Translations under genes and position numbers: made by a program | Shown here: in pieces, positions 1 through 55,311 of the stretch | Layout of the letters: every line of letters begins with the position of its first letter | Position numbering within the stretch: position 1 is the stretch's first letter | Origin: a virus | IMG/VR virus record: IMGVR_UViG_3300037475_000162 | Coordinates: 1 to 64,000 of that record | Length of the DNA stretch: 64,000 bases | Reading direction: 5' to 3' (one strand) | The notes under the pieces: generated by a model | Told to the model about the DNA's origin: nothing | Databases searched by the model: none | What the model saw: the letters and a program-made list of their open reading frames with translations, nothing else

Positions 1-75
1 GACGACGAAATCGGCGACCCGATGCACTTCTGCACGATGAAATGCAAGCGATGCGGCAAGGACTTTATCATCTGA
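1..75 (+). CDS. C-terminal fragment of a small zinc-ribbon-like protein
   Basis: Reading frame 1 is open from the window edge to a TGA at 73-75 and gives the last 24 residues of a protein. It carries a CxxxCxxC cluster (CTMKCKRCG), which suggests a metal-binding ribbon like several other small proteins of this genome. The start lies outside the window, so function cannot be judged. It is followed after 12 bases by the next gene. Confidence 0.5.
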   Translation, partial: DDEIGDPMHFCTMKCKRCGKDFII

Positions 76-87
76 GGAAGCAAAGCG

Positions 88-339
88 ATGCACTACCGAA
101 ACGGTCGGGAAGCGAAGAACGGCGACAAGATCGTGAAGCTCGGCGGCTATGGCAGCGGGGCAAGGATCGTTTCCTTCGGCGTCTTGTACGACGCGGTTGC
201 CGGCAACGACTACTGCAACGGAAGCATCGCGCCGATCACCAACGACACCGGCGCGTGCATCTGCGATTGTCTGCACGTCGATGACGTGGCCGAGGTGCTC
301 AAGCAGGCCGGGCTCGACAAGCGGCCCGAGGGCAAGTGA
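88..339 (+). CDS. Hypothetical small phage protein
   Basis: An 83-residue protein with an AGGAAG ribosome-binding site 8 bases before the ATG. It opens MHYRNGREAKNGDKI, which reads like a small beta-rich domain (a 'GDKIVKLGGYGSG' strand-turn) and contains a CICDC cysteine cluster near residues 58-62. I do not recognise a family. It lies in a series of short same-strand genes ahead of the packaging module. Confidence 0.6.
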   Translation: MHYRNGREAKNGDKIVKLGGYGSGARIVSFGVLYDAVAGNDYCNGSIAPITNDTGACICDCLHVDDVAEVLKQAGLDKRPEGK

Positions 340-373
340 CGGCGGACCTGGGGAGCTTTGAGGCGAAGTAAAC

Positions 374-757
374 ATGCAAGACTCTGCTCGCATAACCGCG
401 GCCGCGCTGCTCTTTGTTGTCGTCGTCGTCCTGTTTGCCGCGTGCATCAGGATGGGCTCTGACCTGGCGACGGCAAACGACCAGGCGGTGAAGAACGCCA
501 GGCTCTACTACGAGGAAAAGGATCGCTGGATTCACTGGACGGATGACGGCGGCGGGACGCTTAAGCTGACCTTTATGCGCCAGGACTCCAGCCTGTTTTA
601 CCTCAAGGGGAAGCGACTGACGTGGGAGCAGTTCAAGCAAATGCCGAAGGACGGCCTTGTCATCGACCGTTTCGAGGGGGATGCCCGCGGCGTCGGCGTT
701 CTGGTGCTCTCGCCTCGCGACACAAGTGAAGTGCTGCCGGCGCCTGACGCGAAGTGA
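374..757 (+). CDS. Membrane-anchored hypothetical protein
   Basis: A 127-residue protein. Residues about 7-28 form one strongly hydrophobic segment (ITAAALLFVVVVVLFAACI) followed by a soluble beta-rich domain with WIHWTDDGGGTLKLTF and later hydrophobic strands. The helix looks like an uncleaved signal anchor; a lipobox reading (LFAAC) is possible but the residues after the Cys are not typical. Its outer domain resembles, in composition only, that of the gene at 35326. Function unknown. Confidence 0.65.
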   Translation: MQDSARITAAALLFVVVVVLFAACIRMGSDLATANDQAVKNARLYYEEKDRWIHWTDDGGGTLKLTFMRQDSSLFYLKGKRLTWEQFKQMPKDGLVIDRFEGDARGVGVLVLSPRDTSEVLPAPDAK

Positions 758-764
758 GAAGCGG

Positions 765-1010
765 ATGAAGTATCAACCGACCGAACAGGACATGGACCGG
801 GACGAGAACAACGTCAACCACCATGTCCCCTTCGGCGACCAGGCCGAGCGGTATCAGGGCAACAGGGCGTGCGCCCTCGTTCTGATCGCCAGTTTCCGCG
901 GCAACTGCCCGCCGTCGCGCGAGTTGTCCCTTGCCCTGACGAAGGTGGAAGAGGCGCTCTTCTGGGCCAACGCCGCCATCGCCCGCAACGAAAAGGACCC
1001 CCGACCATGA
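765..1010 (+). CDS. acb2: Acb2/Tad1-family cyclic-nucleotide sponge (anti-CBASS/anti-Thoeris)
   Basis: An 81-residue protein matching the family pattern: an H-[HP]-x-P-x-GDQ-x-RY segment (residues about 20-30), then P-SRE-LSLALT (about 51-60), then EEALFWANAAIARNE at the C-terminus. These are the hallmarks of the Acb2/Tad1 hairpin family, small helical hexamers that bind cyclic oligonucleotides or gcADPR and so blind CBASS or Thoeris defence. That activity is known for family members; here it is inferred. The ATG at 765 follows a GAGAAGCGG stretch, and the stop overlaps the next start (ATGA). An upstream in-frame extension to 657 is rejected because it would overlap the preceding gene by 100 bases. 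Confidence 0.78.
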   Translation: MKYQPTEQDMDRDENNVNHHVPFGDQAERYQGNRACALVLIASFRGNCPPSRELSLALTKVEEALFWANAAIARNEKDPRP

Positions 1011-1510
1011 AGTCTCTCGCAATCTTCCTGCTCGCTCTGCCCGCTCTGGGACTCATCAGCCCCACTGCGGAGGCCGGCAAGTTCGCCAGGGGCGGTAAGG
1101 CCAGGGCCGTCAAGGCTGCCAAGGCAGCCGCGGCGAAGGTCGCTCCCGCGACCCGCAGCACTCGCAGCGCCTCCCACCGCGGCAACTTCCGCCACGGCTA
1201 CTATCGCGACGGCCGCTTCCACGGTTACGGATCGGCCGGCTACGTCGCGCCGGCCGTCGCCGACCCCGGCGTTGTCGTGGTCCCTGCGCCCGCTCCTGTC
1301 CCCGTCGCCGACCCCGGGCTCACCGCTCGCATCGCTCGCATCGAGGCCGCCCTGGCCGCGCCGCCCGCATACGCACCCGCGCCGGCCTACGCGCCGCCGC
1401 TGTACTACAGCGCGCTGGTTTACAGCTACAGCTACCCGGCCTATTTCTCCGGCGGGTATTACGGCGGATACCGTGACGGCCGCGGAAGTTGCCGCGGCCG
1501 TCATCGCTGA
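1007..1510 (+). CDS. Secreted Gly/Tyr-rich protein
   Basis: A 167-residue protein whose ATG overlaps the stop of the sponge gene. Residues 1-23 are a clear signal peptide (MKSLAIFLLALPALGLISPTAEA), then a basic Ala/Lys-rich part, a Pro/Ala linker, and a C-terminal stretch rich in Tyr and Gly (SYSYPAYFSGGYYGGY). Such low-complexity exported proteins are common in planctomycetes. An enzymatic role is unlikely; it might be a cell-envelope moron product. Translational coupling to the sponge gene suggests co-expression. Confidence 0.65.
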   Translation: MKSLAIFLLALPALGLISPTAEAGKFARGGKARAVKAAKAAAAKVAPATRSTRSASHRGNFRHGYYRDGRFHGYGSAGYVAPAVADPGVVVVPAPAPVPVADPGLTARIARIEAALAAPPAYAPAPAYAPPLYYSALVYSYSYPAYFSGGYYGGYRDGRGSCRGRHR

Positions 1511-1598
1511 CCACCCGGGCCGCGCCGGGATGTGCGCGATACTCGCGCGGACTACCCCGGCGCCGGCCTGGACCATCTCGACCACTGAGGGACCGACC

Positions 1599-2180
1599 AT
1601 GCATGACTCGCTGTGGATCGCCCTGCTTGCGAAACTCGCCTGGCTCTGCCAGCACATCGGCCTGGATCTGACCGCCGGCCTGGCGCTGGTGAGCGCCGCG
1701 ACCGGATCGCTGACCGGCTGGGCAGTCCGCCGCACCGTGCCACCCATCGGCCGGCTGGCCTGGCGCGGCGTCAGCGGAGCCTGCCGCTGGGCGTTTAGCA
1801 CGCCCGAACTGTCGCCGGTCGCTGCGGGCGTCCTGAAGGCGCTGGAAGTCGGTCCGGTGCGATTGAACATGGGCGGCATCGACGCGCCGCGCATCCGGGC
1901 CGCATGGGGCAACACCGGCAACAAGCCCGCGAAGCGGCTGATGTCCTTGTGGCTGTTGCAGCCCGGCGCTTCCGCCCGGTGCATCCTGCCGCTGCTGGCT
2001 CGCCGCGAGCGCCGCCTGATCGAGGCGAAGGCCTACGAGATCGGCCGGCAGCTCCAGAGCGAGGCCGACGAGTACGCGAAGACCGAAGCGGCCGAGGCGC
2101 TGGACCCGCCGGCATGCACGATGACGGACGGCCTGACCGGCGACGCTGGCAAGTACGTCAACGGCCGCCGCGTCGGCTGA
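1599..2180 (+). CDS. Hypothetical protein with N-terminal membrane segment
   Basis: A 193-residue protein. Residues about 5-45 are hydrophobic (one or two helices: LWIALLAKLAWLCQHIGLDLTAG and LVSAATGSLTGWAV), and the rest is soluble with a basic, helical second half (RRERRLIEAKAYEIGRQLQSE). The ATG at 1599 is preceded by TGAGGGACC. A longer frame from 1272 would run through the preceding secreted-protein gene and is rejected. No family recognised. Confidence 0.55.
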   Translation: MHDSLWIALLAKLAWLCQHIGLDLTAGLALVSAATGSLTGWAVRRTVPPIGRLAWRGVSGACRWAFSTPELSPVAAGVLKALEVGPVRLNMGGIDAPRIRAAWGNTGNKPAKRLMSLWLLQPGASARCILPLLARRERRLIEAKAYEIGRQLQSEADEYAKTEAAEALDPPACTMTDGLTGDAGKYVNGRRVG

Positions 2181-2265
2181 GACCACGAGGGAACGGGTCC
2201 GCCAGCGCCGGCGTCGGGGAGAGGCCGCGGCGTCTGGCGGGCCTTCGATGGCGCGAGGAAGAGCG

Positions 2266-2352
2266 ATGCTCTGGCTGTCGCTGACGGGGCTGTACCTGCT
2301 GGTGCTGATCGGCGTCGCGGTGTGGCCGCGGAGGCCGCGGAGGCGAGACTGA
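2266..2352 (+). CDS. 28-residue single-helix membrane peptide
   Basis: A very short frame (28 residues) with GAGGAAGAGCG just before the ATG. It encodes one transmembrane helix (LWLSLTGLYLLVLIGVAVW) and a positively charged tail (PRRPRRRD). The stop overlaps the ATG of the next gene (ATGA), typical of coupled phage genes. It may be a real membrane peptide or a leader peptide. Confidence 0.45.
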   Translation: MLWLSLTGLYLLVLIGVAVWPRRPRRRD

Positions 2353-2708
2353 TGCCGGGCGGGTTCTTCAGGCGGCTGTTCGGCGCTCCGGAAGCGGAAC
2401 CCGTTCACGGGCCGATCGGGCACGACCCGCGCTATCACACCGTTTCGCCCGAGCGGTTCTTCGCCGACCCGGCCATGTGGGAAGCCGCCCCCTCCACGTC
2501 GCACCTGCACTCGTGGGCCTACTATGCCCAGGGCGGCGAGAGCGAGTTGCGGGTGCGGTTCAAGGACAAGCATTCGGGAGGCGTGTCGGCAGAGTATTTC
2601 TACCGCCGCGTGCCGCAGGCGGTGTTCGACGGCTTCCGCAAGGCGGCGCATCCGGGGCAGTTCGGGCATCGCTACATCTGGTACGCCTACGAGACGGGCG
2701 ACGTGTGA
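2352..2708 (+). CDS. KTSC-domain protein
   Basis: A 118-residue protein. Its second half (SELRVRFKDKHSGG...AEYFYRRVPQAVFDGF...GQFGHRYI) fits the KTSC domain, a short domain found in many phage genomes next to packaging genes and of unknown biochemical role. The position directly upstream of TerS fits. Start by ATGA overlap with the small membrane peptide. Confidence 0.65.
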   Translation: MPGGFFRRLFGAPEAEPVHGPIGHDPRYHTVSPERFFADPAMWEAAPSTSHLHSWAYYAQGGESELRVRFKDKHSGGVSAEYFYRRVPQAVFDGFRKAAHPGQFGHRYIWYAYETGDV

Positions 2709-2711
2709 AAT

Positions 2712-3275
2712 ATGGCCGACAAGGGCAAGCTGCCGCCGCTGCAAGAGCGGTTCTGCGAGGAATGGCTCAAGGACCCTTGCGGCGCCCGCGCTTACATGGC
2801 GGCCGGTTACAAGGCGAAGAACGCCGACGTTGCCAATGCCGCCGCCGCCCGCCTGTTAGGGAATGTTAGGGTTCAGGAGCGCATCGCCGAGCTGCAAGCC
2901 GAGCGCAAGAAGCGCGTCGAGATCAAGGCCGACGACGTCCTCCGCGAGCTGCTGCTCATTGCGACATCGGACATCGGGCAGGTACTCGACTTCACCAGGG
3001 GCGATCCGACGCTGCGGCCCGCGAACGAGATTCCGGAGAACGCCCGCCGGGCGCTTGCCTCGGTCAAGGTGAAGCGGACGGTGGAAGGATCGGGCGAGAA
3101 CGCCCGCAACGTGGAGATCACGGAGTTTCGCTTCTGGGACAAGCTCGGGGCGCTGGACCGCCTGGCGAAGCATCTGGACCTGCTCAAGGATCGCGTGGAA
3201 GTGACGGGCAAGGACGGCGAGGCGATTGCATTTATCGAGGTGCGCCATCGCGACAGCAGCGGCGAGCCTGGTTGA
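2712..3275 (+). CDS. terS: Terminase small subunit
   Basis: A 187-residue protein of the Terminase_2 type. The N-terminus has the usual order: LPPLQERFCEEWLKDP, then G-ARAYMAAGY (helix-turn-helix), then a LLGNVRVQERIAELQAE helix and a conserved DDVLRELLLIATSDIGQV segment. Family members bind the packaging-initiation site and feed DNA to the large subunit. It overlaps the start of terL by about 50 bases. The length is normal for the family. Confidence 0.9.
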   Translation: MADKGKLPPLQERFCEEWLKDPCGARAYMAAGYKAKNADVANAAAARLLGNVRVQERIAELQAERKKRVEIKADDVLRELLLIATSDIGQVLDFTRGDPTLRPANEIPENARRALASVKVKRTVEGSGENARNVEITEFRFWDKLGALDRLAKHLDLLKDRVEVTGKDGEAIAFIEVRHRDSSGEPG

Positions 3276-4707
3276 GGAAGGCGAGCGCGGCGGCAAGCGC
3301 TTCCTCGCCTACAACTTCCATCCCGGGCAATCCCGCGCGTGGGCGTCGAAGAAGCGCATCGTCGCCGTCATCGCCGGAGCCCGAAGCGGCAAGACCAGCT
3401 TCGGGCCGCTGTGGCTTCACCGCGAGATGCGGTCGCAGAGGCCGCGCGACGCCATCGTGGCCGCACCGAGTTTCAAGCTGCTCGACAAGGCGGCCGTGCC
3501 GGAGACCGAACAGTTCTTCGCCCGCATGCTTCGCCTGGGAACGCTGAATCGCCAGCCGCTGGAGTTCCGCTTTTCCGACGAGGGGTGCAGGCGGATGTGG
3601 CGGTGCGTCCCGGACCGCCGGCCGCGCATCCTGTTCGGCCACGCCGACGATCCCGATTCGCTGGAAGCGATGACGGCCGGCGCCGGTTGGCTTGACGAGT
3701 GCGGCCAGAACCGCTTCAAGCTCGGCTCGTGGGAAGCCGTGCAGCGCCGCCTCAGCATCGACCAGGGCCGCGTCTTGCTGACCACGACACCCTACAACCT
3801 GGGATGGCTGAAGCAGCTCATTTACGACAAGTGGGAGGAGGAGAAGAGGAATCACCCGGAGATCGACCTGATCCGCTTCGATTCAACGCTGAACCCGGCG
3901 TTCCCGCCTGACGAGTGGGAGCGGGCGCGGCGCGACTTGCCGCGGTGGAAGTTCGACATGTTTTACCGGGGGATCTTCACCCGGCCGCCGGGGCTGATTT
4001 ACGACAGCTTCGACAGCAAGGACCACGTTCGTCCGCCGTTCAAGATCGAGGACGCCTGGGAGCGTTTCGTCGGCATCGACTTCGGCGGGGTCAACACGGC
4101 TGCGACGTTTTTTGCCGCGGAGCAGGACCGGCGGGGCGCGCCGACCGGCCGGCTGATCTGCTACCGGGAGTACCACCCGGGCAAGAAATCCCCTGCCGAG
4201 CACGTCAAGGCGATCCTCGAAGGCGAGCCGCGCATTCCGACGTGCGTGGGCGGCGCCGGCAGCGAGGACGACTGGCGGGACAGGTTTGCCGAAGCCGGAC
4301 TGCCGATCCTGAAGCCAGAGGTGCGGGACGTCGAGGTCGGCATCGATGCGGTGTGGAGCTGCTTCAGCCGCGGCATGGTCAAGGTCTTCTCGACCCTGAC
4401 GGGCCTGCTGGACGAACTGGCCAGCTACTCGCGCGTGCTCGACGATTCCGGCGAGCCAACGGAAAAGATCGACGCCAAGGATACTTACCACCTCCTTGAC
4501 AGCGCCAGATACATCCTCGGCTGGCTGCGCGGCGACGCCGAGGACACCGGTGATCTGACGCAGCCCGCCGCCGCCCGCTCGATGATGTCGCGTCTCGTCG
4601 AGGAGATCGAGCCCGGCACGTTTGCCGCGGACCGCGACGAGCCCGCTTCGGCCGGCGACATCGGCATGGGCCAGTGGGGCGATGCGGGAATAATGCCGTG
4701 GCGGTGA
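3226..4707 (+). CDS. terL: Terminase large subunit (ATPase-nuclease)
   Basis: A 493-residue packaging motor. Walker A is GARSGKTS (residues about 51-58), Walker B/catalytic Glu is WLDE (Asp157, Glu158), the coupling motif is LLTTTPY, and the RNase-H-fold nuclease has FVGIDFGG (Asp285) and a C-terminal DSARYILGWL (Asp425). It cleaves concatemers and pumps DNA into the prohead. The first frame start is TTG at 3226, within terS; a start somewhat further in is possible because the ATPase core begins only near residue 30. Confidence 0.92.
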   Translation: MHLSRCAIATAAASLVEEGERGGKRFLAYNFHPGQSRAWASKKRIVAVIAGARSGKTSFGPLWLHREMRSQRPRDAIVAAPSFKLLDKAAVPETEQFFARMLRLGTLNRQPLEFRFSDEGCRRMWRCVPDRRPRILFGHADDPDSLEAMTAGAGWLDECGQNRFKLGSWEAVQRRLSIDQGRVLLTTTPYNLGWLKQLIYDKWEEEKRNHPEIDLIRFDSTLNPAFPPDEWERARRDLPRWKFDMFYRGIFTRPPGLIYDSFDSKDHVRPPFKIEDAWERFVGIDFGGVNTAATFFAAEQDRRGAPTGRLICYREYHPGKKSPAEHVKAILEGEPRIPTCVGGAGSEDDWRDRFAEAGLPILKPEVRDVEVGIDAVWSCFSRGMVKVFSTLTGLLDELASYSRVLDDSGEPTEKIDAKDTYHLLDSARYILGWLRGDAEDTGDLTQPAAARSMMSRLVEEIEPGTFAADRDEPASAGDIGMGQWGDAGIMPWR

Positions 4708-4717
4708 GGACCGACGC

Positions 4718-6238
4718 TTGATCGCGCAGACGCTATCCCTGATCGGCCGGGCCGCCAACAACGTGGCGAAGGCCCTGCTGCCGCCGCGGAACGAGTTGCC
4801 CGCCGGCGGCGACTACGGCGCCGGCCAGGCCCCCGGACCCAACAGGGGCGGCATTCCGGCCGAGCTGAAGCGCGAGGGCCTCCCCTGGCGCGGCCCGGAG
4901 ATCGAGGCGCGCAGCGAGGTCGGCCGCGAGGTCGCCCAGGAGCGGCTGCGCAGCGGGCCGGCGGGGGTGGTGTACCCGTGGTTCACCAGCAACGCGATCA
5001 ACGACGGCAGCCGCGAGACGCAGACGATGCGCGGCGACTACCGGATGATGGAGAGCGACCCCAACGTCAGCGCCGCCGTCAAGGGGCTGATTTTCTCGGT
5101 GGCGACCCAGGACCTGACCATCACGCCGGCGAAGCGCGGCGACCCGGCCAGCGAGATGCACGCGGAATTCATCCGCTGGAATGTGACGAAGCGCCTCGCG
5201 GGCGGCAGTTTCGGGCTGATCTGGGACATGCTCTCGGGAGGATTGCGCGACGGCTACAGCCTGCTCTACAAGAGCTACGGCGTGCAGCGCGACGGCCTGT
5301 GGGGCAACCCGGCGAAGTGGCCGCTGCGGCAGGTCAAGGCCGTGGACGTCGGCAACGACGCAGTGCCGCAAACGGACAGCCACAGGAATGTTGTCGGCGT
5401 TCTCGGGCTGAGGTACAATGCGGGAGTTGAACTGTCTCCTTCCGAGTTCATCTACTTCCGCCACTGCCCCTCGTACAACAACCCGCTCGGCGTCTCGGCC
5501 TTCCGCTGCGTGTGGAGGGCGTGGAAGTTTACGCAGGCGATCTGGCTGCTGCGCGGGATTGCCAGCGAGAAACGGACGACGCCGTTCATTCACGGCTCTT
5601 ACCGCACGTCGAGCCAGAAGGCGCAGCTCGAGGCGATGCTGGCGAAGGTGTCGTCGCAGAACTGGGCCAGCCTGCCCGAGGGCGTGCTGCTGAAGGCGCT
5701 CGACATCGCCCAGGGCAGCGAGGAGCATTACAAGAGCGTAATAGGCGACTTGCAGGAGCTCATCTATCTCGGCATCCAGCACGGAACGCTTCAGGCGCTG
5801 ACGGGCGGCGAGGGCGAGGAGCGCGGCAACAGCAAGGTCCACAAGTCGCAGACCGACCTCGTCCGGACGGCCCTCTCCAAGATGGTCGAGGCGTGCCTCA
5901 ACGACTACGAGGCGGGCTGGATTCGCGAGTGCATCGATCTGAATTTCCCCGACGCGGACGATTACCCCGTCGCCACGCTGGGCAATCCCAGCGTGGAGGA
6001 GTTGATCCAGCTGATGCAGCTCTACAAGGGATTGCAGGAGCTGGGGCTGAAGCTCGGCAAGGATCGGACCTACGAACAGTTCGCGATCCAGCCGCCGGAG
6101 AGCGACGACGACGTGCTGGAGCCTGCGGCGAAGGAGCAGACGCCTGTACCCGGACTGCCCGGTCCGGGAGCGCCGTCCGACGATGTGCAGCCGCCCGAAC
6201 CCGAGCCGGTCGGGGGAGGGGTGAAGCATGCCGCATAG
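4718..6238 (+). CDS. Portal protein (DUF935 / Mu gp29-like)
   Basis: A 506-residue protein. The middle (MRGDYRMMESDPNVSAAVKG, the GYSLLYKSYG strand, FIYFRHCPSYNNPLG, SEKRTTPFIHG, LGIQHGTLQALTGG) has the order of motifs of DUF935 portal proteins, the type used by Mu-like heads. The C-terminus is acidic and Pro-rich (PESDDDVLEPA). It forms the ring at the capsid vertex for DNA entry and exit. The start is TTG with GTGAGGAC upstream, 10 bases after terL. Confidence 0.85.
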   Translation: MIAQTLSLIGRAANNVAKALLPPRNELPAGGDYGAGQAPGPNRGGIPAELKREGLPWRGPEIEARSEVGREVAQERLRSGPAGVVYPWFTSNAINDGSRETQTMRGDYRMMESDPNVSAAVKGLIFSVATQDLTITPAKRGDPASEMHAEFIRWNVTKRLAGGSFGLIWDMLSGGLRDGYSLLYKSYGVQRDGLWGNPAKWPLRQVKAVDVGNDAVPQTDSHRNVVGVLGLRYNAGVELSPSEFIYFRHCPSYNNPLGVSAFRCVWRAWKFTQAIWLLRGIASEKRTTPFIHGSYRTSSQKAQLEAMLAKVSSQNWASLPEGVLLKALDIAQGSEEHYKSVIGDLQELIYLGIQHGTLQALTGGEGEERGNSKVHKSQTDLVRTALSKMVEACLNDYEAGWIRECIDLNFPDADDYPVATLGNPSVEELIQLMQLYKGLQELGLKLGKDRTYEQFAIQPPESDDDVLEPAAKEQTPVPGLPGPGAPSDDVQPPEPEPVGGGVKHAA

Positions 6239-7085
6239 CAGCGTGTTCCCCCGGCTGACGGAGGCCTTGCGACCGCGGCTGTTCCCACGGCTGGCGCACG
6301 CGCTGGAGCGATTCGCGGAGAAGGGCTGGGACGAGAAGAAGCATCCGCGCGGCCAGCCGGGCAACAAGGGAGAGTTCGGCCCGGGCGGCGCAGACAGCAG
6401 CAAGAAAGAGACGAAGCCGGGAGGCAAAGAGACGAAGCCGGCCGCGGGCAAGACGGAGAAACCGAAGCTGGCCGGCAAGCCGCAGAAGCCGCCGCCGCAA
6501 AAGCAGATGAGCGAGAAGGCGCTTCGTGCAAAGGCCGCTCACGTCATGGTGGACAGGGACATTCAGCGATACACGGAGGAGCATAACGAGCCGCGTTTCG
6601 CAAAGGTGGTCGGCGGCGAGAGCCTCCCCGACAGCGAACCGTACGACGTCGGAACGGCTCGCGATCTGATCGAGCTGAAGACGCTGGTGAAGAACGGCAA
6701 TGGCAAGCTCACGATGGACAAGTACGCCCAGGTGCGGAAGGTCGTCAAGGAAGAGGAAACCGGCAAGGTCTTCCACACGGTTGTCAGCGACGATCAGCAG
6801 GTGTTCAACAGCCTGGGCGAGGGGCGGCACGACGACAGCAAGCGAGTGTACTACTACCGCCGCGGCGTGGCCGGCAGCGCCCGTATAGCGGCCATGCTCA
6901 AAGTCGAGAGCGAGGCCGAGTTGAAGAAGCTGATGGCCATGCCGGAGGACCAACTTCCGCCAGCGGCGAAACGCACAGACGGCAAGCTGCGATCCGGCAA
7001 GTGGGAATTCGTGCAGACGGGAAATCGCGGCGCGGGGTATTACCGCAACAAGGACACCGGCGAGGAGGCGCATCCCAAGAAATGA
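6228..7085 (+). CDS. Head-associated protein with PD-(D/E)xK-like C-terminal domain
   Basis: A 285-residue protein beginning inside the last codons of the portal gene. Residues about 34-50 contain the WDEKKHPRGQPGNKGEFGPGG element common in phage head morphogenesis proteins, followed by a Lys/Pro-rich linker. The C-terminal domain (SEPYDVGTARDLIELKTLV, then KVFHTVVSDD and YYYRRGVAGS) resembles the accessory domain fused to Mu F-like head proteins in other phages. PYD followed by ELK is compatible with a PD-(D/E)xK nuclease core, which is an inference. It also has an RFAE motif at residues 28-31, like the cleavage-site-like motifs in the next gene. Confidence 0.6.
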   Translation: MPHSSVFPRLTEALRPRLFPRLAHALERFAEKGWDEKKHPRGQPGNKGEFGPGGADSSKKETKPGGKETKPAAGKTEKPKLAGKPQKPPPQKQMSEKALRAKAAHVMVDRDIQRYTEEHNEPRFAKVVGGESLPDSEPYDVGTARDLIELKTLVKNGNGKLTMDKYAQVRKVVKEEETGKVFHTVVSDDQQVFNSLGEGRHDDSKRVYYYRRGVAGSARIAAMLKVESEAELKKLMAMPEDQLPPAAKRTDGKLRSGKWEFVQTGNRGAGYYRNKDTGEEAHPKK

Positions 7086-10000
7086 GCGTCTACATCGCCA
7101 CCTCCGAAGCGCCGCCCGCATTCGTCGCCAGCAACACCGGCTGGGGAGAGTTCTGCCGCTGGGCCGAGCATCTCGAAGGCGCGCCTGCGGCGGCGCACCT
7201 CGCGGCCTACGGATGGACGGACGACGTGGAGGAGTTGGCCGGCGAACTGCAAGACGCGACCGGTGCGGACGACGACGTCAAGGCTGTGGCGGCCACGCTT
7301 TGCGGTTTGCTCGACGGCGCCGAGACCGTGGTTGTCACGGACGGCGTGTCGCCCGGCGACGGCGGCAGCGACCCCGACAGCTTCGGCGAAGACCATCCGT
7401 CTCCTGACGACGCCCCGGATCTCGCCGAGTTTTACGCCTCCCTCTGCAACGACCTCGCCGCGGCCGGCGACGACCCCGGCGACGTCGCCGACGAGGCGAG
7501 CGAGGAGCTTGCCGCCGACGGCTGGAGCATCGTGGAGGACGGCGGGAAGTGGAAGGCGAGCCATGAGAGCGAGGCGGACGCCGACGAGGAAGCGGAAAAG
7601 TTCACCGAGCGGGCGCCGAAAGGCGGCGTGTCGATCGGGGGCAAGTTCTTCGCCGGCGGCAAATGGATTCCCAACAAGGATCTCGCCAACGCCTCCCCGG
7701 AAGACAAGGCGAAGCTCGCCGCCGCGAAGGCTGACTCCGACACGAAGGCCGCCGGCCGCAAGCAGGAGCGCGCCGGTCGCGGCAGCATCGACGTCAGGGG
7801 CCTGCAAGACCGCCTGGCGAAGCACGCCGGCGCCCACACGCTGACAGGCAGGGAGCGGGGCGGGGCGGCTGCGATTGCCACGCTCTTGCACCGGCACCAC
7901 GGCGAGCTGGCGCTGCACCGCGTCGAGGAACTGGCCGACCGCGTCGAGCGGACGCTGAAGACCATCGGCGACGACCACCCCAACAGCGAGGGGCTGCGGC
8001 AGCAGTTCGGGAAGAGGCTGGCGCAACTGCACGCGGCGGCGGAGCGGCTGGGCGCGAAGGGCGTCACTGGCAAGGTGGAGAAGCCGAAGCAGGCTGCTTC
8101 ACCGCAGGCAAATAAATCCGCCAATCCGGCGGCCGACGCCGCGGCGCTGCACGGCGACGTCGCCCGGCGACTGATAGCGATGAACAAGATGCCGCCGGAA
8201 GAGGCGAAGGAAGCCTACGCCGCGCTGCACAAGGACGTGGTCGATCGATTGCGGGCGATGGACGTGGCGCACCAGCCCTTGAGCGGGCTTCGCGAGATTG
8301 CCAGGGCGGTGCCCGGGGCCAACCCGCGCGGCAGCGCCCACGACGTGGCTGACTCCATTGTGCGGACCATCCTCTCGCCCATGATGATCAGCCTGGAGGG
8401 GCATGGCACGACGGGGGCGCAGTTCCCCGAGGACGTCTTCCCTTCGCGGCCGGAGAAGACGGACCGCCGCCAGGCGGCCGAGCAAGCGAAGGCCGACCGG
8501 CAGCAGGCCGGCCTGAAGCGGCAGGAGCAGGAGCGGCAGCAGCAGGCCGCCGCCGCCTCGCCGCAGGCAAAAACCGCCGCCGCCGCCGTCAAGGCCGTCC
8601 AGCATGGAGCGGCGAACGGAACGGGCAAGGCCGACCTCGACGCGAAGCTCGACGCGCTCGATCTGCCGTCCATGTCCCCGGCCGACCTACAAGGCGCGGC
8701 GCGCGTGCTGGGGGTGAACGCCTCTGGCGGCAAGGCCGAGCTGATCGGCCGAATTCGCCGATCGGTCCATGAGATACCCGAGATCCGCCTGGCCGGCGCA
8801 GGCAGCGTATCGCCCGCGCCCGCAGCGAAGCCCGAAGGCGAGGGCGCGGCATACCTCGCCGCGAAGCTCAAGGGCATGGGCGTTCCTGACGGTCCGCGCG
8901 CCCTTCCCGCCTCGCGGCCGGGCAAGACCCCGGCCGAGCATCAGGCGGCGGTGATGGAGTCGATCCGCCGGGCCGGGCTGAAGCCGGGCGGACTGCTGTC
9001 GCTGGCGAAACTGCACCTCGCCACGGGCTTGCCGCTGGCCGACATGCACGCCGCCGTCAACGACCTGCGCCGGCAGGGCAAGCTGACGGGCACGCGGCAC
9101 GAAAGCCGTGGCGGCCTGCCGCGGGACGTGGCCGCGGCGGCGCTGACGGACCCCGGCGGCGGGCAGATTCACCATGTGAGCGTGCGGGAGGAAGGCGGCG
9201 GGCATGGGCCGGCCAGGCACGCCGAACGCTTCCCCCGCCTTGCATCCGCCCTGCTGCGGTTCAGCGAGGGCGGCGGCAGCGACCTGCACCGGATCAACGG
9301 CATCGAGTTGTTCGCCACGGGCAACCACCGCGGCGTGGACTACACCCTCGACGACCTGAAGGACATGGTGCGGAATTTCGAGGAGTACAGCGCCCCGCGA
9401 GAGAACAGGGCGCCGCGGCAAGCGATGCCGTTTGTGATTGGCCACGGCGAGGACCAGTCCATCCTCGAGCGCAGCGACCTGCCCGCGGCGGGATGGTTCA
9501 AGCAGCTGGGAATTCGCCCGTCGCCGATCCCGGAAGACCCCGGCCGGTACGTCCTGGAGGGGGACGCGGCCGACGTGCCGGGCAAGGTGGCGCGGCTGAT
9601 CAGGAGCCGCGCCTACCCGAAGGTCAGCCTGGAGATTTACCCTCCGGAACTGCACCCGTTCAAGGGACGGGGAATGATGGCGCGTCGCGCGGCCATGCTC
9701 GGCGGCGACGTGCCCCAGGTGAAGGACCTCGACGACATCCCGAGGCCCGAGCCGATGAGCGAGCCGGCGCGACGCTGGCCGACAATCTTACGATTCAGCG
9801 AGTCCGCCACGGTTCGCGGCTGTCTCGCCTTCTTTTCCGAGGTGATCGACATGGACCCCGAACAGTTGAAAAGCAAGCTGGTCGAGCAGCACGGCATGGA
9901 TCCGGCGGCCGTCGAGAAGATGCACCCCGACGCGATGGCCGAGGTGTGTAGGAAAATGGACGAGAAGGACGCGAAGGCCGGCATGGACGACGACAAGGCC

Positions 10001-10795
10001 GACGGCTGGATGGCCAGCAAGCTCGACGAGGAGATGCCCGACGACGAGGAGAGCATGGAGAAGTACGGCGAGGCGTGGAAGAAGTTCGGCGAGTTCCGCC
10101 GCGCCTTCGGCGAGCGCTGCGCCAAGAAGTATGGCGAGCGGTTCAAGAAATTTTCCGACGGCGGGGACATGTACCAGGGCGCGAAGGACGCCGGCTATCC
10201 CGCCGACCAGGCGGCGGCGATGGCACACAAGACGCTCAAGGACGAGGGAAAGGATCACAAGATGAGCGAGGGCGCGTTGACGGCGCTGATCCAGAAGACC
10301 GTGGCCGACGCTCTGAAAAAGGAGGTCGGCAGCAGCATCAGCAAGCTGGAGAAGTTCGACGAGGAGCTGCGCAGGGAGAAGCGCAAGGAACTGGTCGAGG
10401 GCGTCCTCGATCGGCTGGCCGACCGCATCCCGCCCGGCGAGCGCGACAACGAGCGGGCTGTGCTGGAACTGCTGGCCGACGATGCGTCCGTCCACAAGTT
10501 CAGCGAGGCCGGCGGCAAGACGTGGCAGGGCACGCGCTACCAGCAGCGCATCAAGGCGCTGGAGAAGCGCAGCCCGATCACGGCCCAGCGGATGAAGTTC
10601 GCGGAGGCCGGCGGCAGTGCGGCCGACGACGACGTTGCCCGGGTCGAGCGCTTCAGCGAGTCGCCGATCCTGGCGTCCGCGCTGGCCGCCGCGAACAAGA
10701 CGCCCGCGAAGTACGTCGAGGACTTCAAGGAATTGCGCAAGAAGAACCCCCAGCTGACCGCCACGCAGTACGGGGTGCCGGCCAACGTGGCCTGA
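7082..10795 (+). CDS. Giant fusion: SAP-containing N-terminus + Mu-I-type head maturation protease + scaffold
   Basis: A 1237-residue protein starting by ATGA overlap. Residues 1-170 are acidic. About 525-560 resemble a SAP DNA-binding helix pair (LDLPSMSPADLQGAARVLG, GGKAELIGRI), and about 635-690 a winged-helix-like segment. Residues about 735-880 fit the Mu gpI-type prohead protease (INGIELFATGNH, DDLKDMVRNFEEY, MPFVIGHGED, AAGWFKQL, AYPKVSLEIYP). From about 925 follows a highly charged helical scaffold ending in LTATQYGVPANVA. F[ST/A][E/D] motifs recur at F174, F727, F905, F918, F1024, F1140, F1173 and F1191, at the domain borders. Most Mu-like protease/scaffold proteins are about 350-400 residues, so the 700-residue extension is unusual. 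Confidence 0.8.
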   Translation: MSVYIATSEAPPAFVASNTGWGEFCRWAEHLEGAPAAAHLAAYGWTDDVEELAGELQDATGADDDVKAVAATLCGLLDGAETVVVTDGVSPGDGGSDPDSFGEDHPSPDDAPDLAEFYASLCNDLAAAGDDPGDVADEASEELAADGWSIVEDGGKWKASHESEADADEEAEKFTERAPKGGVSIGGKFFAGGKWIPNKDLANASPEDKAKLAAAKADSDTKAAGRKQERAGRGSIDVRGLQDRLAKHAGAHTLTGRERGGAAAIATLLHRHHGELALHRVEELADRVERTLKTIGDDHPNSEGLRQQFGKRLAQLHAAAERLGAKGVTGKVEKPKQAASPQANKSANPAADAAALHGDVARRLIAMNKMPPEEAKEAYAALHKDVVDRLRAMDVAHQPLSGLREIARAVPGANPRGSAHDVADSIVRTILSPMMISLEGHGTTGAQFPEDVFPSRPEKTDRRQAAEQAKADRQQAGLKRQEQERQQQAAAASPQAKTAAAAVKAVQHGAANGTGKADLDAKLDALDLPSMSPADLQGAARVLGVNASGGKAELIGRIRRSVHEIPEIRLAGAGSVSPAPAAKPEGEGAAYLAAKLKGMGVPDGPRALPASRPGKTPAEHQAAVMESIRRAGLKPGGLLSLAKLHLATGLPLADMHAAVNDLRRQGKLTGTRHESRGGLPRDVAAAALTDPGGGQIHHVSVREEGGGHGPARHAERFPRLASALLRFSEGGGSDLHRINGIELFATGNHRGVDYTLDDLKDMVRNFEEYSAPRENRAPRQAMPFVIGHGEDQSILERSDLPAAGWFKQLGIRPSPIPEDPGRYVLEGDAADVPGKVARLIRSRAYPKVSLEIYPPELHPFKGRGMMARRAAMLGGDVPQVKDLDDIPRPEPMSEPARRWPTILRFSESATVRGCLAFFSEVIDMDPEQLKSKLVEQHGMDPAAVEKMHPDAMAEVCRKMDEKDAKAGMDDDKADGWMASKLDEEMPDDEESMEKYGEAWKKFGEFRRAFGERCAKKYGERFKKFSDGGDMYQGAKDAGYPADQAAAMAHKTLKDEGKDHKMSEGALTALIQKTVADALKKEVGSSISKLEKFDEELRREKRKELVEGVLDRLADRIPPGERDNERAVLELLADDASVHKFSEAGGKTWQGTRYQQRIKALEKRSPITAQRMKFAEAGGSAADDDVARVERFSESPILASALAAANKTPAKYVEDFKELRKKNPQLTATQYGVPANVA

Positions 10796-10851
10796 CCCGG
10801 ACCCGCGGCAACGCGCAACCCACAATGAGACATAGAAGAGAGAGGTAAACA

Positions 10852-11643
10852 GTGGCGAATGCAACCTCCAGGGTGGCCCGCGCGGTCCGCGGCTACCGCG
10901 ACGAGATCCTCACCCACAGCTACGGGACCGTCAGCAGCAAGACGCAGCTGTACACGACGGCCATGCTCGGCCTGAACGCCGGCTATCTGACCAAGTTCGA
11001 CGACACCGGCGCCTACACGTTCTTCGGCCTGGTCAACGAGGACGAGGGCAACCCGGTCGTGCCCAGCGACGGCACGACCTCGGCCACGGCCGGGGCGAAC
11101 AGTCTCGGCGTGGACGTGCGACAGCCGCCCGCCTTCGAGCTGAACATCGCCAGCGTCGCCATCACCGACATCGGCCGCCGCGTCTACGCGCTGGACGATC
11201 AGACGGGGACGCTCGATCCGTCGGCCACGACGTACGGCAACCTGATCGGCACGGTAAAGGATCTGATCTTCGCGGCGGACGGCGGCAGTCCGGTGGCGAA
11301 CTACGCCCTGGTTGCGCCGATCTACGGAACGCCGGTGGGCGGCCGGTTGCAGGTCTTCAGCGCTTCAGGCGCCATCCAGCAGCGCAGCAGCATCGTGTGG
11401 CTGAAGGGCAACAGCGCCCTGGCGATGACGCTGGCCAACCCGACGACGCTCGTACAGGACGGCATGACGATCGAGATCATCGAGACGGGCACCGGCGCTC
11501 ACACTGTCACCACCGGCAGCAACGGCATCAACGGGGCCAGCCATATCGCCACCTTCGGCGGGGCCGCCGGCGACAACCTCGTGCTGATCGCCCTGGGCGG
11601 CAGCTGGTACGTGGAATCGTCCGTGGGCGTCGTCCTGAGTTGA
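10852..11643 (+). CDS. Probable capsid decoration or minor head protein
   Basis: A 263-residue protein with a GTG start behind a strong AGAGAGGT site. It sits between protease/scaffold and major capsid gene, the usual place for decoration protein. It is Gly/Ala/Thr-rich and beta-stranded; the first half (residues 1-150, with FFGLVNEDEGNPVVP and AITDIGRRVYALDD) is like decoration proteins of other phages, while the second half (from VASGAIQQRSSI to the end) reads like a separate beta domain. The assignment rests on position and composition. Confidence 0.5.
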   Translation: MANATSRVARAVRGYRDEILTHSYGTVSSKTQLYTTAMLGLNAGYLTKFDDTGAYTFFGLVNEDEGNPVVPSDGTTSATAGANSLGVDVRQPPAFELNIASVAITDIGRRVYALDDQTGTLDPSATTYGNLIGTVKDLIFAADGGSPVANYALVAPIYGTPVGGRLQVFSASGAIQQRSSIVWLKGNSALAMTLANPTTLVQDGMTIEIIETGTGAHTVTTGSNGINGASHIATFGGAAGDNLVLIALGGSWYVESSVGVVLS

Positions 11644-11665
11644 CCTGCGGGAATGGAGGCGGGCC

Positions 11666-11923
11666 TTGCGCATCAAGCGGACGAGAAACGGCGTCGTGGA
11701 CTGGATCGAGGGGCTGTCGCCTCTGGGCTTCGCCCTGGGCTTCACCTCCGACGGCGAGAAGGCGGGACGGTTCAGCCCGGACGTCTGTTCGCTGGTGCGC
11801 GAGAACTACGCGCCACACCCCGCCGCGGGCGTGCTGACCGCCGAGCCCGACGAGGAGCCGGCGGCGCCGGAACCGGTACGGGCCGAGCCGAAGAAACCAA
11901 GGGGCCAGAAGGCCGCCGTCTGA
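11666..11923 (+). CDS. Small hypothetical head-region protein
   Basis: An 85-residue protein with a TTG start preceded by GGAGGCGGGCC. It has an N-terminal folded part (MRIKRTRNGVVDWIEGLSP) and an acidic Pro/Ala/Glu tail ending PKKPRGQKAAV. Unrecognised. The tail composition is typical of small phage structural or assembly accessory proteins. Confidence 0.55.
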   Translation: MRIKRTRNGVVDWIEGLSPLGFALGFTSDGEKAGRFSPDVCSLVRENYAPHPAAGVLTAEPDEEPAAPEPVRAEPKKPRGQKAAV

Positions 11924-12035
11924 CCGGAACAGAGAACGACCATGCGGCCGGGGGTAGCTCCCCTTCATCACCTTCCCCGGGTGACGGTCGCTGGACACCA
12001 CGGGGCACCTGCTCGGGGAGCGGGCGAGAACTGAC
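11924..12035 (+). other. Structured spacer before the major capsid gene
   Basis: The 112-base gap contains a tight hairpin GGGG-TAGCT-CCCC near 11954-11966 and G/C-rich complementary blocks around it (a CCCC...GGGG pair flanking the base sequence at 11987-12010). No gene is visible. It may set capsid translation level or mRNA stability. The evidence is base complementarity only. Confidence 0.3.
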
Positions 12036-28217: not shown

Positions 28218-29651
28218 GTGCCCTGCCCGGAGACAACGACGGTGTTTGATCGCGTGTACCTCATCAATCTGGAGAGCCGGCCCGACCGCCTGGAGGCGTT
28301 CCGCGAGCGGCAGAAACTGCGCGGCTGGAAACTACCCGACCCCATCGTTTATCCGGCGATCCACGGGGACACGGTGGGGGCGCCGAAGCGGTTCACCGAG
28401 GGGGGCGGGGCGCACGGATGCCGGCAGAGCCATGTTCGCATCCTTGAGGACTGCCTCATGGACGGCGTCGAGAGCGTGCTTGTGATGGAGGACGACGCCG
28501 AGTGGTTTGACGAGGTGTGGCTGCGCCTGGAGTCGTTCTTGAAAGTGGTTCCCGCCGATTGGGACTGTCTCATGCTGGGCGGCTGGCACGAGCGGCCGTC
28601 CACGCCGGTCGGGCCGGGCGTCTGCCGGGCGGTGAAGGTGGGAGGAACCCACGCCTACGCCGTGCGCGGCCGGGCCATGAAATCCTTGCTTGCTCTGTGG
28701 TACGACTGCACGGTGCATATCGACTGGGCGATGAGCGACCACTGGCAGAAGAAATGGAACACCTACTGCCCGACGCCCTTCCTGTTCGGGCAGGGGGCGG
28801 GCCGCAGCGACATCAGCGGCCGATCGCGACTTCAGCCGCAGTTCGGCGGCCCCGCCGCGCCCATCGCCGCAGTTCCCGGCGATCGCGTCTACAGCCACGC
28901 CGGGGACTGCGGCGATCTGATTGCCGCGCTGCCCGTACTGGCGGCGCGGCCGGGCGCGCTGCGGCTGGTGCAGCACGCCTGCACGGGCAAGCGCATGACC
29001 CGCGACCGGGTCGAATCGCTGCGGCCCTTGCTCGAAGCGCAGAGCTACGTTCGCGGCGTCGAGTGGGCCGACGCCTACGACGGCGAGCGCCTCGACAAGG
29101 GAATCCGCCAGTATTACCAGCCGCATTTGAACATCGCGGACATGCAATGTGACGCCTTCCACGTCGCCCACTGGCCGCGCGGGAAACCGTGGCTCCGCGT
29201 GCCAGAGGTGCGCAAGGTCGCCCGCGTGGCCCTGGCCCGCAGCGCCCGCTACCACACCGCCGCCTTCCCGTGGAAAGAGGTGCTGGCGAAGTACGGGTCG
29301 GAGGCTGTGTTTCTCGGGACCGTCCAGGAGCATGCGGCGTTCTGCGCGGAGGTGGGGCCAGTCCCCTACCATCCCACGGCCGACTTCCTGGCGCTGGCGG
29401 AAGTGATTGCCGGCGCGGAACTGGTCGCCGTGAACCAGACGGCGATCTTCTGGCTGGCGGAGGGATTGAAAAAGCCCGTGCTGCTGGAAGTCTTCCCCCC
29501 GGCCGACAACTGCAACTTCGCCCGGCCGGCCCACGTCCACGGCCTGTCGGAGGGCGCATTGCCGGAGATCGAGGATCTTGCGGCGGCGAACGTCGCCACG
29601 CCCCCGGCGGTTGTGCGGACGGGGCGGCGGGTGATCGGAGGCGCCCCATGA
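28218..29651 (+). CDS. Two-domain glycosyltransferase (GT25 + GT9-like)
   Basis: A 477-residue protein. Residues about 11-200 fit the GT25 family (VYLINLESRPDRLEAF, Gly/His motif GAHGCRQSH, EDD at 91-93 as nucleotide-sugar/metal site). Residues about 215-460 resemble a GT-B fold of the heptosyltransferase (GT9) kind (GDRVYSHAGDCGDLIAALP, AVNQTAIFWLAEGLKKPVLLEVF). GT25 enzymes add galactose or similar sugars to LPS or collagen-like residues. Located between fibre genes and coupled to the next enzyme, so may modify the phage fibre or the host envelope. GTG start with GGCGGCAGG upstream. Confidence 0.75.
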   Translation: MPCPETTTVFDRVYLINLESRPDRLEAFRERQKLRGWKLPDPIVYPAIHGDTVGAPKRFTEGGGAHGCRQSHVRILEDCLMDGVESVLVMEDDAEWFDEVWLRLESFLKVVPADWDCLMLGGWHERPSTPVGPGVCRAVKVGGTHAYAVRGRAMKSLLALWYDCTVHIDWAMSDHWQKKWNTYCPTPFLFGQGAGRSDISGRSRLQPQFGGPAAPIAAVPGDRVYSHAGDCGDLIAALPVLAARPGALRLVQHACTGKRMTRDRVESLRPLLEAQSYVRGVEWADAYDGERLDKGIRQYYQPHLNIADMQCDAFHVAHWPRGKPWLRVPEVRKVARVALARSARYHTAAFPWKEVLAKYGSEAVFLGTVQEHAAFCAEVGPVPYHPTADFLALAEVIAGAELVAVNQTAIFWLAEGLKKPVLLEVFPPADNCNFARPAHVHGLSEGALPEIEDLAAANVATPPAVVRTGRRVIGGAP

Positions 29652-37234: not shown

Positions 37235-38407
37235 ATGGCGCGAGCCCCGCGAGTGCCCAGCTACCGACTCCACAAGGCCAGCGGCCAGGCCGTCGTCACC
37301 TTTAGCCGCCACGACGTATACCTGGGCGCCCACGATTCCCCCGAATCCCATGCGCTCTACAAGCGAAAGGTAGCCGAGTGGCTGGCGGCCGGTTGCCGCC
37401 AGCCGCCGCCGGCGGGATCGGCCCTGACAGTGGCCGAATTGATGGCCGCGTACTGGGCGCACGCCAAGACGTACTACGTCAAACACGGCAAGCCCACCGG
37501 ACCGCAGAGCCGCATCAGGAGCACCATCTCCATCGTGAACGAGTTGTACGGCGACGATCCGGCCGTGGGATTCAGTCCGCGCGCGCTGAAGGTTGTGCGG
37601 GAAGCGATGGTGGCAAAGGGCTGGAAGCGGAGCACGGTCAACCAGTACACCCAGCTCGTCGTGCAGTCGTTCGCGTGGGCTGTAGAGGAGGAGTTGGTTG
37701 CCGCGAGCGTGCATCACGCGCTCATGGCTGTCGCGCCGCTGAGGAAGGGGCGCACCGCGGCTCCGGAGTCGGAGAAGGTCGATCCGGCGCCGGAAACATC
37801 CATCGACGCCGTACGCCCGGTGCTGACGCCGATGCTCTCCGATGTGATGGACTTCCAGATCCTGACCGCCGCACGGCCTGGCGAGGCGCTGGCGGTGCGA
37901 CCGTGCGACCTGGACCGCGAAAGCGAGGTGTGGCTGTACCGGCCGCGGGCGTTCAAGACGGAGCATCACGAGGACGCCGAGCGAGTCATCTACATTGGCC
38001 CCCGCTGTCAGGCGATTCTGCGTAGGCGGTGGCCGGCCGGGGAAGAGGAGTTCTTCTTTTCGGCAGCGGCCGCAATGGAGGAGCGCTCGCAGGCGCTACG
38101 GGCCGCGAGAAAAACGCCCGTGCCGCTGTCCCAGCAGAACCGCCGCGCCAGGCGGCGAAAGCGACCGTGGGGAAAGCAGTACCGCGTCTCCAGCTATCAG
38201 CACGCCGTTGCCAGGGCGTGCGAGCGGGTCGGGTGCGAACACTTTTACCCCCACCAGCTTCGCCACAACGCCGGAACGCGGATCAGGGCGGAATTCGGTC
38301 TGGAGGTTGCCGCAGTGATCATGGGGCACGCACACCTCTCCACCGCAGAAATCTACGCGGAACAGGATCTTGCCGCAGCCGTCAAGGCCATGAAGGTCGT
38401 TGGCTGA
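37235..38407 (+). CDS. int: Tyrosine site-specific integrase
   Basis: A 390-residue tyrosine recombinase. The catalytic residues are Arg214 (TAARPGE), His340-Arg343 (HQLRHNAG), His365 (MGHAHLS) and Tyr374 (EIYAEQDL). The N-terminal 180 residues carry the SAM-like core-binding domain (TVAELMAAYWAHAKTYYVK). The catalytic domain has an insertion rich in Arg at about residues 285-320. It integrates phage DNA, likely at the tRNA target found just upstream. The ATG follows GGAGCCAGCC, and TAGAAT at 37202-37207 may be its -10. Confidence 0.9.
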   Translation: MARAPRVPSYRLHKASGQAVVTFSRHDVYLGAHDSPESHALYKRKVAEWLAAGCRQPPPAGSALTVAELMAAYWAHAKTYYVKHGKPTGPQSRIRSTISIVNELYGDDPAVGFSPRALKVVREAMVAKGWKRSTVNQYTQLVVQSFAWAVEEELVAASVHHALMAVAPLRKGRTAAPESEKVDPAPETSIDAVRPVLTPMLSDVMDFQILTAARPGEALAVRPCDLDRESEVWLYRPRAFKTEHHEDAERVIYIGPRCQAILRRRWPAGEEEFFFSAAAAMEERSQALRAARKTPVPLSQQNRRARRRKRPWGKQYRVSSYQHAVARACERVGCEHFYPHQLRHNAGTRIRAEFGLEVAAVIMGHAHLSTAEIYAEQDLAAAVKAMKVVG

Positions 38408-43048: not shown

Positions 43049-44166
43049 ATTTGCCCCTACTCGCTCCGACCACTGACAACACCATCGCCTCGACGCCCGA
43101 GGTGGACGGACTGCTTGCCGCTGAGGCCCCCGTGGCAATCGGTGTCAGCGGCGGAAAGGACTCCTGCGCCATGGCCTTCGCTCTCGTCGAGCAACTCGAC
43201 GGCATCGGGCACGCTGGCCCGCGAATCCTCATCCACAGCGACCTGGGGCGGACGGAGTGGAAGGACAGCCTCCCCACCTGCGAGAGGCTGGCGAAGGCAA
43301 CCGGCGTTGAACTCGTCGTCGTCCGCCGCAAGGCCGGCGACATGCTGGCCCGCTGGCAGGGCCGGTGGACGAACAACGTCGAGCGATACCTGACGCTCTC
43401 CTGCGTCAAGCTGATCCTACCCTGGTCCACGCCGTCGATGCGGTTCTGCACGTCGGAACTCAAGATGGACGTGATCTGTGCGGAGCTGGTCCGCCGGTTT
43501 GGCGGCCGGACCATCCTCAGCGCCAGCGGCATCCGCGCCGATGAGAGCGCCAACCGGGCCCAGGCCCCTGTTGCCAAGCGGCAGCCGAAGCTGTGCCGCG
43601 CGTCGCGCAAGCCGGTGCGGATCACAACCGGCCTGGACTGGCACCCCATTCTCCGCTGGTCGGTCGATGACGTGTGGAGTCTGTGCCGGCAGCGGGGCTT
43701 CCTCATGCATGAGGCGTACACGCGCTACGGCAGCAGCCGGGTTTCCTGCTGCTTCTGCATCCTGGGAAACAACGGCGACCTTCTCGCCGCCGCCGGGTGC
43801 GACGACAACCACGACCTGTACCGGCAGATGGTTGCCCTTGAGGCTGTGTCCACGTTCGCCTTCCAGGGCGGCGAATGGCTTGGAGACGTGGCCCCGCACC
43901 TGCTCACAGCCGAAATACTGGACGGCGTCCGGCAGGCCAAGGAGGCGGGCAAGCGTCGTGAGGCAGCAGAGGCTCGCATCCCGAAGCACCTGCTCTACAC
44001 CAAGGGCTGGCCTACCTGTGTGCCGGCCCACGAAGAGGCGGTCCTGCTGGCGTCCGTCCGGCTCGCCGTGGCGACCGCCGTTGGCCTGACACCTACATTC
44101 ACCGACCCCGACCAGATCATCGCCCGTTATGAGGAGCTTATGCGCATGAAGGCAGAACGAAACTGA
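43045..44166 (+). CDS. PAPS-reductase-like PP-loop protein
   Basis: A 373-residue protein of the phosphoadenosine phosphosulfate reductase family. The PP-loop motif is SGGKDS at residues 35-40. The downstream part has RFCTSELKMDVI, and a cysteine cluster CCFC near residue 234 with other Cys that could hold a cluster or zinc. Phage members of this family are known but their true substrate is often unclear; possibilities are sulfate reduction or transfer of sulfur/AMP to nucleic acids. Standard DndC-type partners are not present. Confidence 0.7.
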   Translation: MNLPLLAPTTDNTIASTPEVDGLLAAEAPVAIGVSGGKDSCAMAFALVEQLDGIGHAGPRILIHSDLGRTEWKDSLPTCERLAKATGVELVVVRRKAGDMLARWQGRWTNNVERYLTLSCVKLILPWSTPSMRFCTSELKMDVICAELVRRFGGRTILSASGIRADESANRAQAPVAKRQPKLCRASRKPVRITTGLDWHPILRWSVDDVWSLCRQRGFLMHEAYTRYGSSRVSCCFCILGNNGDLLAAAGCDDNHDLYRQMVALEAVSTFAFQGGEWLGDVAPHLLTAEILDGVRQAKEAGKRREAAEARIPKHLLYTKGWPTCVPAHEEAVLLASVRLAVATAVGLTPTFTDPDQIIARYEELMRMKAERN

Positions 44167-54454: not shown

Positions 54455-54907
54455 ATGGCCCAGCACATCTCCGCTCTGGTGCGCCGGCTGCAGCCAAAAC
54501 CGGCCGACTGCTTCGGCGATTGGATTGGGCGCGCGTCCATGCGGGACTGGACCCCCGAATTCCGCAAGCAGATGGAGCAGGCCATGACGACTCGATCCTG
54601 GCACACGACCGCCGCCATCTGGCGAGACAGCAACATTCAGCTCCTCGTCCGGGCCGCCAAACTGATCGATCAGGGCCACTTCAACAATGACATCCGCGAC
54701 CGTCTGACGTCGATCATGGACGCGGATGGAAAATCCGAGCTGGCCGCCAGGGTCCGCGCCTTGCCCGACCGCACCGTCTGCGGCGTGGAGGAGTCCTGGG
54801 TCGAAGCGGCGCTGCTCACGTTCTGTCGCGAGGAGGCGGCCAGGCTGATGCATCTGCGCGCCGACCTCGCCCGTCCTGACCCTGTTCCCCCTGGAGACCC
54901 GTCATGA
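54455..54907 (+). CDS. Hypothetical helical protein
   Basis: A 150-residue helical protein (ISALVRRLQPKPADCFGDWI, WRDSNIQLLVRAAKLIDQGH). It ends by ATGA overlap with the next gene. Unrecognised. Confidence 0.5.
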   Translation: MAQHISALVRRLQPKPADCFGDWIGRASMRDWTPEFRKQMEQAMTTRSWHTTAAIWRDSNIQLLVRAAKLIDQGHFNNDIRDRLTSIMDADGKSELAARVRALPDRTVCGVEESWVEAALLTFCREEAARLMHLRADLARPDPVPPGDPS

Positions 54908-55311
54908 AGATCTTCCTCAGCAGCAGATACTCTCGCCGCCTTGAGATGTGCGACGTGCGGGAAGTGCTGGAGGCGAAAGGCCACACGGTCACAAGCCGCT
55001 GGCTCGACACCATGTGGCGCGAAACCGACGAGCACGGGAGCGCGTCGGCCCCGCCTGCACACCGTGCGGAGTACGCCGTCAAGGACCTCGAAGACGTGGC
55101 CGCGGCCCAGTGCCTGATCGCCTTCACCGAACCGCCGCGCAGCAACGGCCGCGGCGGACGGCACGTGGAACTGGGCGCCGCGCTGGCGCTGGGCAAGCGG
55201 GTCGTGGTGGTTGGGTTCCGGGAGAACCTCTTCTGCCACCATCCAGCCGTGGAGTTCTTCGACTCGGCCCAGATCATGCTGCACACCCTCTTCTTCCGTC
55301 CCCTGGAGTAA
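54904..55311 (+). CDS. Nucleoside 2-deoxyribosyltransferase-like protein
   Basis: A 135-residue protein with MKIFLSSRYSRRLEM at the N-terminus, DLEDVAAAQCLIAFTEPP and GGRHVELGAALALGKRVVVVG. These resemble the nucleoside 2-deoxyribosyltransferase fold (also similar to TIR-like and DUF4406 proteins). Acid His-Glu residues are in place. Possible roles: nucleotide metabolism or processing of a signalling nucleotide. Confidence 0.6.
   Translation: MKIFLSSRYSRRLEMCDVREVLEAKGHTVTSRWLDTMWRETDEHGSASAPPAHRAEYAVKDLEDVAAAQCLIAFTEPPRSNGRGGRHVELGAALALGKRVVVVGFRENLFCHHPAVEFFDSAQIMLHTLFFRPLE

Follow-up and report, generated by a model that had tools for sequence, protein, structure and literature searches.

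The window, by which we mean the whole stretch of DNA analysed here (64,000 bases of a viral record that is 64,887 bases long), carries at positions 765–1010 a small gene which probably (at a probability of roughly 0.78) encodes a compact cyclic-oligonucleotide sponge of the Acb2 family, belonging to a temperate planctomycete phage. Proteins of the Acb2/Tad1 family serve phages as sponges for the molecules with which bacterial immune systems raise the alarm. We report the gene, its family membership, a predicted helical monomer and invariant residues at positions that are ligand- or core-associated in Acb2, whereas hexamer assembly and messenger binding would follow from what is known of the family. 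The gene and its domain are located as follows:

765–1010, + strand: acb2-type gene, compact Acb2/Tad1 hairpin protein of 81 aa (PF24729, phrog_1454, profile match to PDB 9ptq, AF2 model)
819–986, + strand: Acb2/Tad1 hairpin domain proper (PF24729 positions 2–58, found by searching the record of the window in six frames)

The reading frame starts with ATG and ends with TGA, and its 81 aa product contains the motifs GDQAERY, SRELSLALT and WANAAIARNE, just as had been proposed from the sequence alone. In a family scan the protein matched PF24729 (Acb2/Tad1 hairpin) at 53.8 bits (E 2.3e-14), twice the curated cut-off of 27 bits, and phrog_1454 at E 7.4e-18. With a family HMM built leaving the window protein out it scored 92.3 bits, against 7.2 bits for the best of 1000 shuffles and 6.0 bits for the runner-up among the 1001 stop-to-stop segments of the window, while PADLOC and NCBIfam contained no model for it. 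A search of the PDB with the single sequence gave E 0.06 at best, and the link to solved members needed a profile of 51 relatives, which found PDB 9ptq ('Acb2 homolog 43') at E 1.7e-9 and the Tad1 chains at E 1.6e-3.

By sequence the protein is a member of a compact and very common subfamily (PHROG 1454, about 65–85 aa), which is also carried by prophages of many phyla. When viral contigs were scanned, 214 relatives came up, of which the best 80 were retained; a genome scan gave 45 loci from many phyla, and annotated phages provided 175 records, mainly from Paenibacillus, Mycobacterium and Gordonia phages. As most annotations in this abundant subfamily read hypothetical, and some even phosphomannomutase, correct naming would help annotation. 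The latter label is found on compact Acb2 homologs in Paenibacillus and Brevibacillus phages (KT151955.1, 78971–79177; KT361655.1), and is apparently a propagated misannotation. A separate observation concerns the 70-kb viral contig IMGVR_UViG_3300010401_000005, which contains two compact acb2 genes, diverged from each other and separated by about 12.5 kb (L003 and L004), that cluster together in the tree (support 96/96) and possibly represent two ligand specificities.

The AF2 model of the 81 aa protein (mean pLDDT 91, pTM 0.68) is all helical, with helices at residues 7–17, 26–47 and 52–75, and the Tad1-type N-terminal beta domain is not present. This predicted monomer has the layout reported for Acb2, i.e. 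one short N-terminal helix and two long antiparallel helices (PMC12043709, PMC10419184). T4 Vs.4 (PDB 7uq2) ranked second in Foldseek with a probability of 0.91 but an E-value of 0.93, and the VIA-align Z of 6.7 falls among the values of helical hairpins that are unrelated; for a two-helix hairpin Foldseek gives E-values close to 1 and scores plain two-helix hairpins similarly, making the fold search weakly discriminating, and the predicted fold is consistent with Acb2 and no proof of it. The original prediction had staked the family call on an HMM match and on a helical hexamer of two-helix hairpins. Profile matches (to PF24729 and 9ptq) and an Acb2-like hairpin were both found, the latter in a model covering the monomer only, and the family call stands.

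Invariant in 51 relatives are R34, R52, E53, T59, E62, W67–A70, I72, A73 and R74. The residues R34, R52 and T59 align with K26, R67 and T74 of PaMx33 Acb2, where K26 and R67 presumably contact ligands. T59 also aligns with T68 of T4 Acb2, in which the T68M substitution lowers binding (PMC12657230), while in the T4 protein dinucleotide binding requires Y8, and F82 is stacked on the base (PMC12657218). T4 Y8 is replaced by His20, which is nearly always His in the 51 relatives, and in the alignment with T4 Vs.4 and PaMx33 Acb2 T4 F82 is replaced by Ala73. Two of the three published residues of the T4 dinucleotide pocket are thus replaced across the subfamily and T68 alone is kept (as T59), although the roles of Y8, T68 and F82 are known from T4 only and bear on the choice of ligand more than on membership. 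Judged from the alignments, the invariant residues line up with ligand- or core-associated Acb2 positions, with the subfamily keeping part of the site and changing the rest; as the candidate pocket differs from those of the tested proteins, a single ligand cannot be named. In phage T2 the vs.4 product (LC348380.1, 60593–60832) is 100% identical to T4 Acb2 in a match which begins at residue 9, with Y8 outside it, and this fits the description of the T2 dinucleotide site as disrupted (PMC12657218).

The window has a GC content of 67% and nearly all of its genes on the + strand, and family scans identified terminase, portal, major head, tail and baseplate genes. Together with a tyrosine integrase and a small sigma-like protein, these point to a temperate tailed phage. 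The genes referred to here are:

2712–3275, + strand: terminase small subunit (context; PF03592 E 7.8e-30, phrog_51)
3262–4707, + strand: terminase large subunit (context; phrog_2 E 3.4e-31, closest viral relatives 43%; the family scans used a longer start, 3226)
37253–38407, + strand: tyrosine integrase (PF00589 E 1.7e-10, planctomycete relatives 41–44%)
60263–60775: small sigma-like protein

The acb2 gene lies ahead of the packaging genes, in agreement with the original prediction, and a megablast search with positions 1–12000 found no close phage record. With regard to the host, integrase matches at E 2e-20 or better, mostly full-length, were present in 34/199 planctomycete genomes (best match 312 bits, nearly full length), often with several of this type per genome, e.g. 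six in G025, whereas 197 actinomycete genomes gave no full-length match (best 28 bits, C-terminal part only). The nearest Acb2 copy (68% identity) is located in a Singulisphaera (Planctomycetota) prophage and groups with the window protein at 97/90 in a low-resolution tree. The terminase was of no help (28–34% to planctomycete prophages). From these relationships, of which that of the integrase is the stronger evidence, the host very probably belongs to the planctomycetes, as had been proposed. Elsewhere in the window we noted a glucosyltransferase-like gene (28218–29651, phrog_2835) following the baseplate and tail genes, a PAPS-reductase-domain protein of a kind seen near phage DNA-modification genes (43102–44166), and a weak match to nucleoside 2-deoxyribosyltransferase (54904–55311, PF05014) just under the cut-off.

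We also searched planctomycete genomes for SMODS and STALD markers. SMODS-type CD-NTases were found in 18/294 genomes and STALD, the marker of type I Thoeris, in 1/294, with PF24729 above the cut-off in 10/294; these genomes are samples and many are perhaps incomplete. In one planctomycete locus (L153, 1342–2980) the CD-NTase (SMODS) is directly followed by a SLATT_4 2TM effector, an arrangement which is, by gene content, a CBASS-like operon. The CD-NTase genes mean that a target for a CBASS-type sponge exists in the phylum, although the Singulisphaera genome with the nearest Acb2 copy gave no SMODS-type CD-NTase match. The suggestion that planctomycete hosts use such defence is therefore consistent with the CBASS-type signalling seen in their genomes, rather than something to be deduced from the sponge gene itself.

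By analogy with the family, the subunits would assemble into a hexamer, and this putative hexamer would bind, and not degrade, cyclic oligonucleotides produced by host CD-NTases of CBASS systems. Effectors would thus not be activated, and a cell that has been infected or induced may live long enough to produce phage. We think that cyclic trinucleotides and/or dinucleotides are the likeliest ligands. The N-terminal beta domain of Tad1 forms much of its gcADPR pocket, and as this domain is absent from the window protein, gcADPR (Thoeris) is a less likely ligand.

A protein of the same fold family could have a ligand which is no CBASS messenger, and act as a sponge for Thoeris gcADPR or type III CRISPR cyclic oligoadenylate, or bind another host nucleotide. 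The replacement of two of the three T4 pocket residues throughout the subfamily would fit this, as would the spread of the subfamily over many phyla with different defences, and Tad1 has its hairpin in common with Acb2 and binds gcADPR (PMC12043709). We nevertheless consider it unlikely, given the difference in planctomycete genomes between the counts of STALD, which covers type I Thoeris, and of SMODS and the lack of the beta domain in a protein of only 81 aa. More doubtful still is a reading in which the altered pocket of the compact subfamily (His for Tyr, Ala for Phe) captures a messenger that has so far not been linked to Acb2 and that serves planctomycetes and other phyla which have been little studied; if true, these phages would reveal an as yet undescribed immune signal. 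That this member of the family has decayed or been repurposed, binds no messenger and serves in structure or regulation might be proposed from the location of the gene next to the packaging genes and from the Singulisphaera copy, which is directly behind a 394 aa gene in a seemingly structural region. This is very unlikely, as R34, R52, E53, T59, E62 and most of W67–R74, the binding half, are intact and invariant, and where the gene lies with respect to structural genes differs from phage to phage.

The original prediction further coupled the sponge to a secreted Gly/Tyr-rich protein. The genes on either side of acb2 are:

374–757, + strand: upstream gene, 127 aa, hydrophobic N-terminus, lipobox-like LFAAC (by eye), no family
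1007–1510, + strand: overlapping downstream gene, 167 aa, signal-peptide-like N-terminus, Gly/Tyr/Ala/Pro-rich, no family

A functional pair encoded on one message, e.g. a two-layer counter-defence or a lysogenic-conversion module, would be in keeping with the predicted ATGA overlap, which is indeed present at 1007–1010 (the downstream gene starts within the acb2 stop codon), with the signal-peptide-like start, with both genes being coding by composition (GC3 of 0.84 for acb2 and 0.81 for its neighbour, similar to the terminase and portal genes), and with the upstream product, which from its N-terminus also looks exported. A conserved or functional link did not emerge: the downstream product matched no family above the cut-off in Pfam, PHROG and NCBIfam scans, was without relatives in viral contigs, and when searched against 294 planctomycete genomes gave weak low-complexity matches only, none of them convincing. 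In 68 acb2 loci the downstream gene differs nearly everywhere; the same 4-base overlap occurs in 10/68, with differing partners, and the downstream gene passes a crude secretion rule in 4/68, the window included; acb2 without such a neighbour is already the rule. The neighbour of the Singulisphaera copy is unrelated as well, and a sponge acting in the cytosol would have no obvious step in common with a protein that is exported. We give such a pairing hardly any credence; the downstream gene is probably an unrelated accessory gene, and we read the 374–1510 region as several small accessory genes lined up ahead of the packaging operon, with no functional pair.

This counter-defence family has been described mainly from phages of proteobacteria, bacilli and actinobacteria, and the reading as a CBASS-type sponge extends it to a phage of planctomycetes. 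The Planctomycetota then have both the CD-NTase genes (in one case next to a 2TM effector) and a sponge to match them. The 765–1010 gene leaves the understanding of such sponges unchanged, and its gene neighbourhood is an ordinary one.

Finally, we compared the window protein with known systems. The compact Acb2 of the Singulisphaera sp. GP187 prophage (L086, L002) is the nearest copy, with the 68% identity extending over 63 residues, but differs in its location behind the 394 aa gene and in its next gene, which is non-secreted. Tad1 (CbTad1, PDB 7uav; CmTad1, PDB 8kbd) has the C-terminal hairpin motif SRE..ALT.VEEAL.W.N in common with the window protein (26–28% identity over 47 residues), but is about 125–140 aa long with its additional N-terminal domain. 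The Acb2 proteins of PaMx33 (p26, PDB 8h2j/8h2x) and T4 (Vs.4, found by PF24729 at 70 bits) belong to the same Pfam family and have the short helix and two antiparallel helices predicted for the window protein, whereas identity is only 11–22%, their hairpin is about 24 columns longer, and their Y8/Y11 correspond to His and T4 F82 to Ala. PDB 9ptq (76 aa, six chains), for which a literature search found no paper, is only about 25% identical over the aligned part, but has a compact hairpin of equal length, and the profile match spans positions 13–69, including the PEGREKS..TKLEEAMF core.
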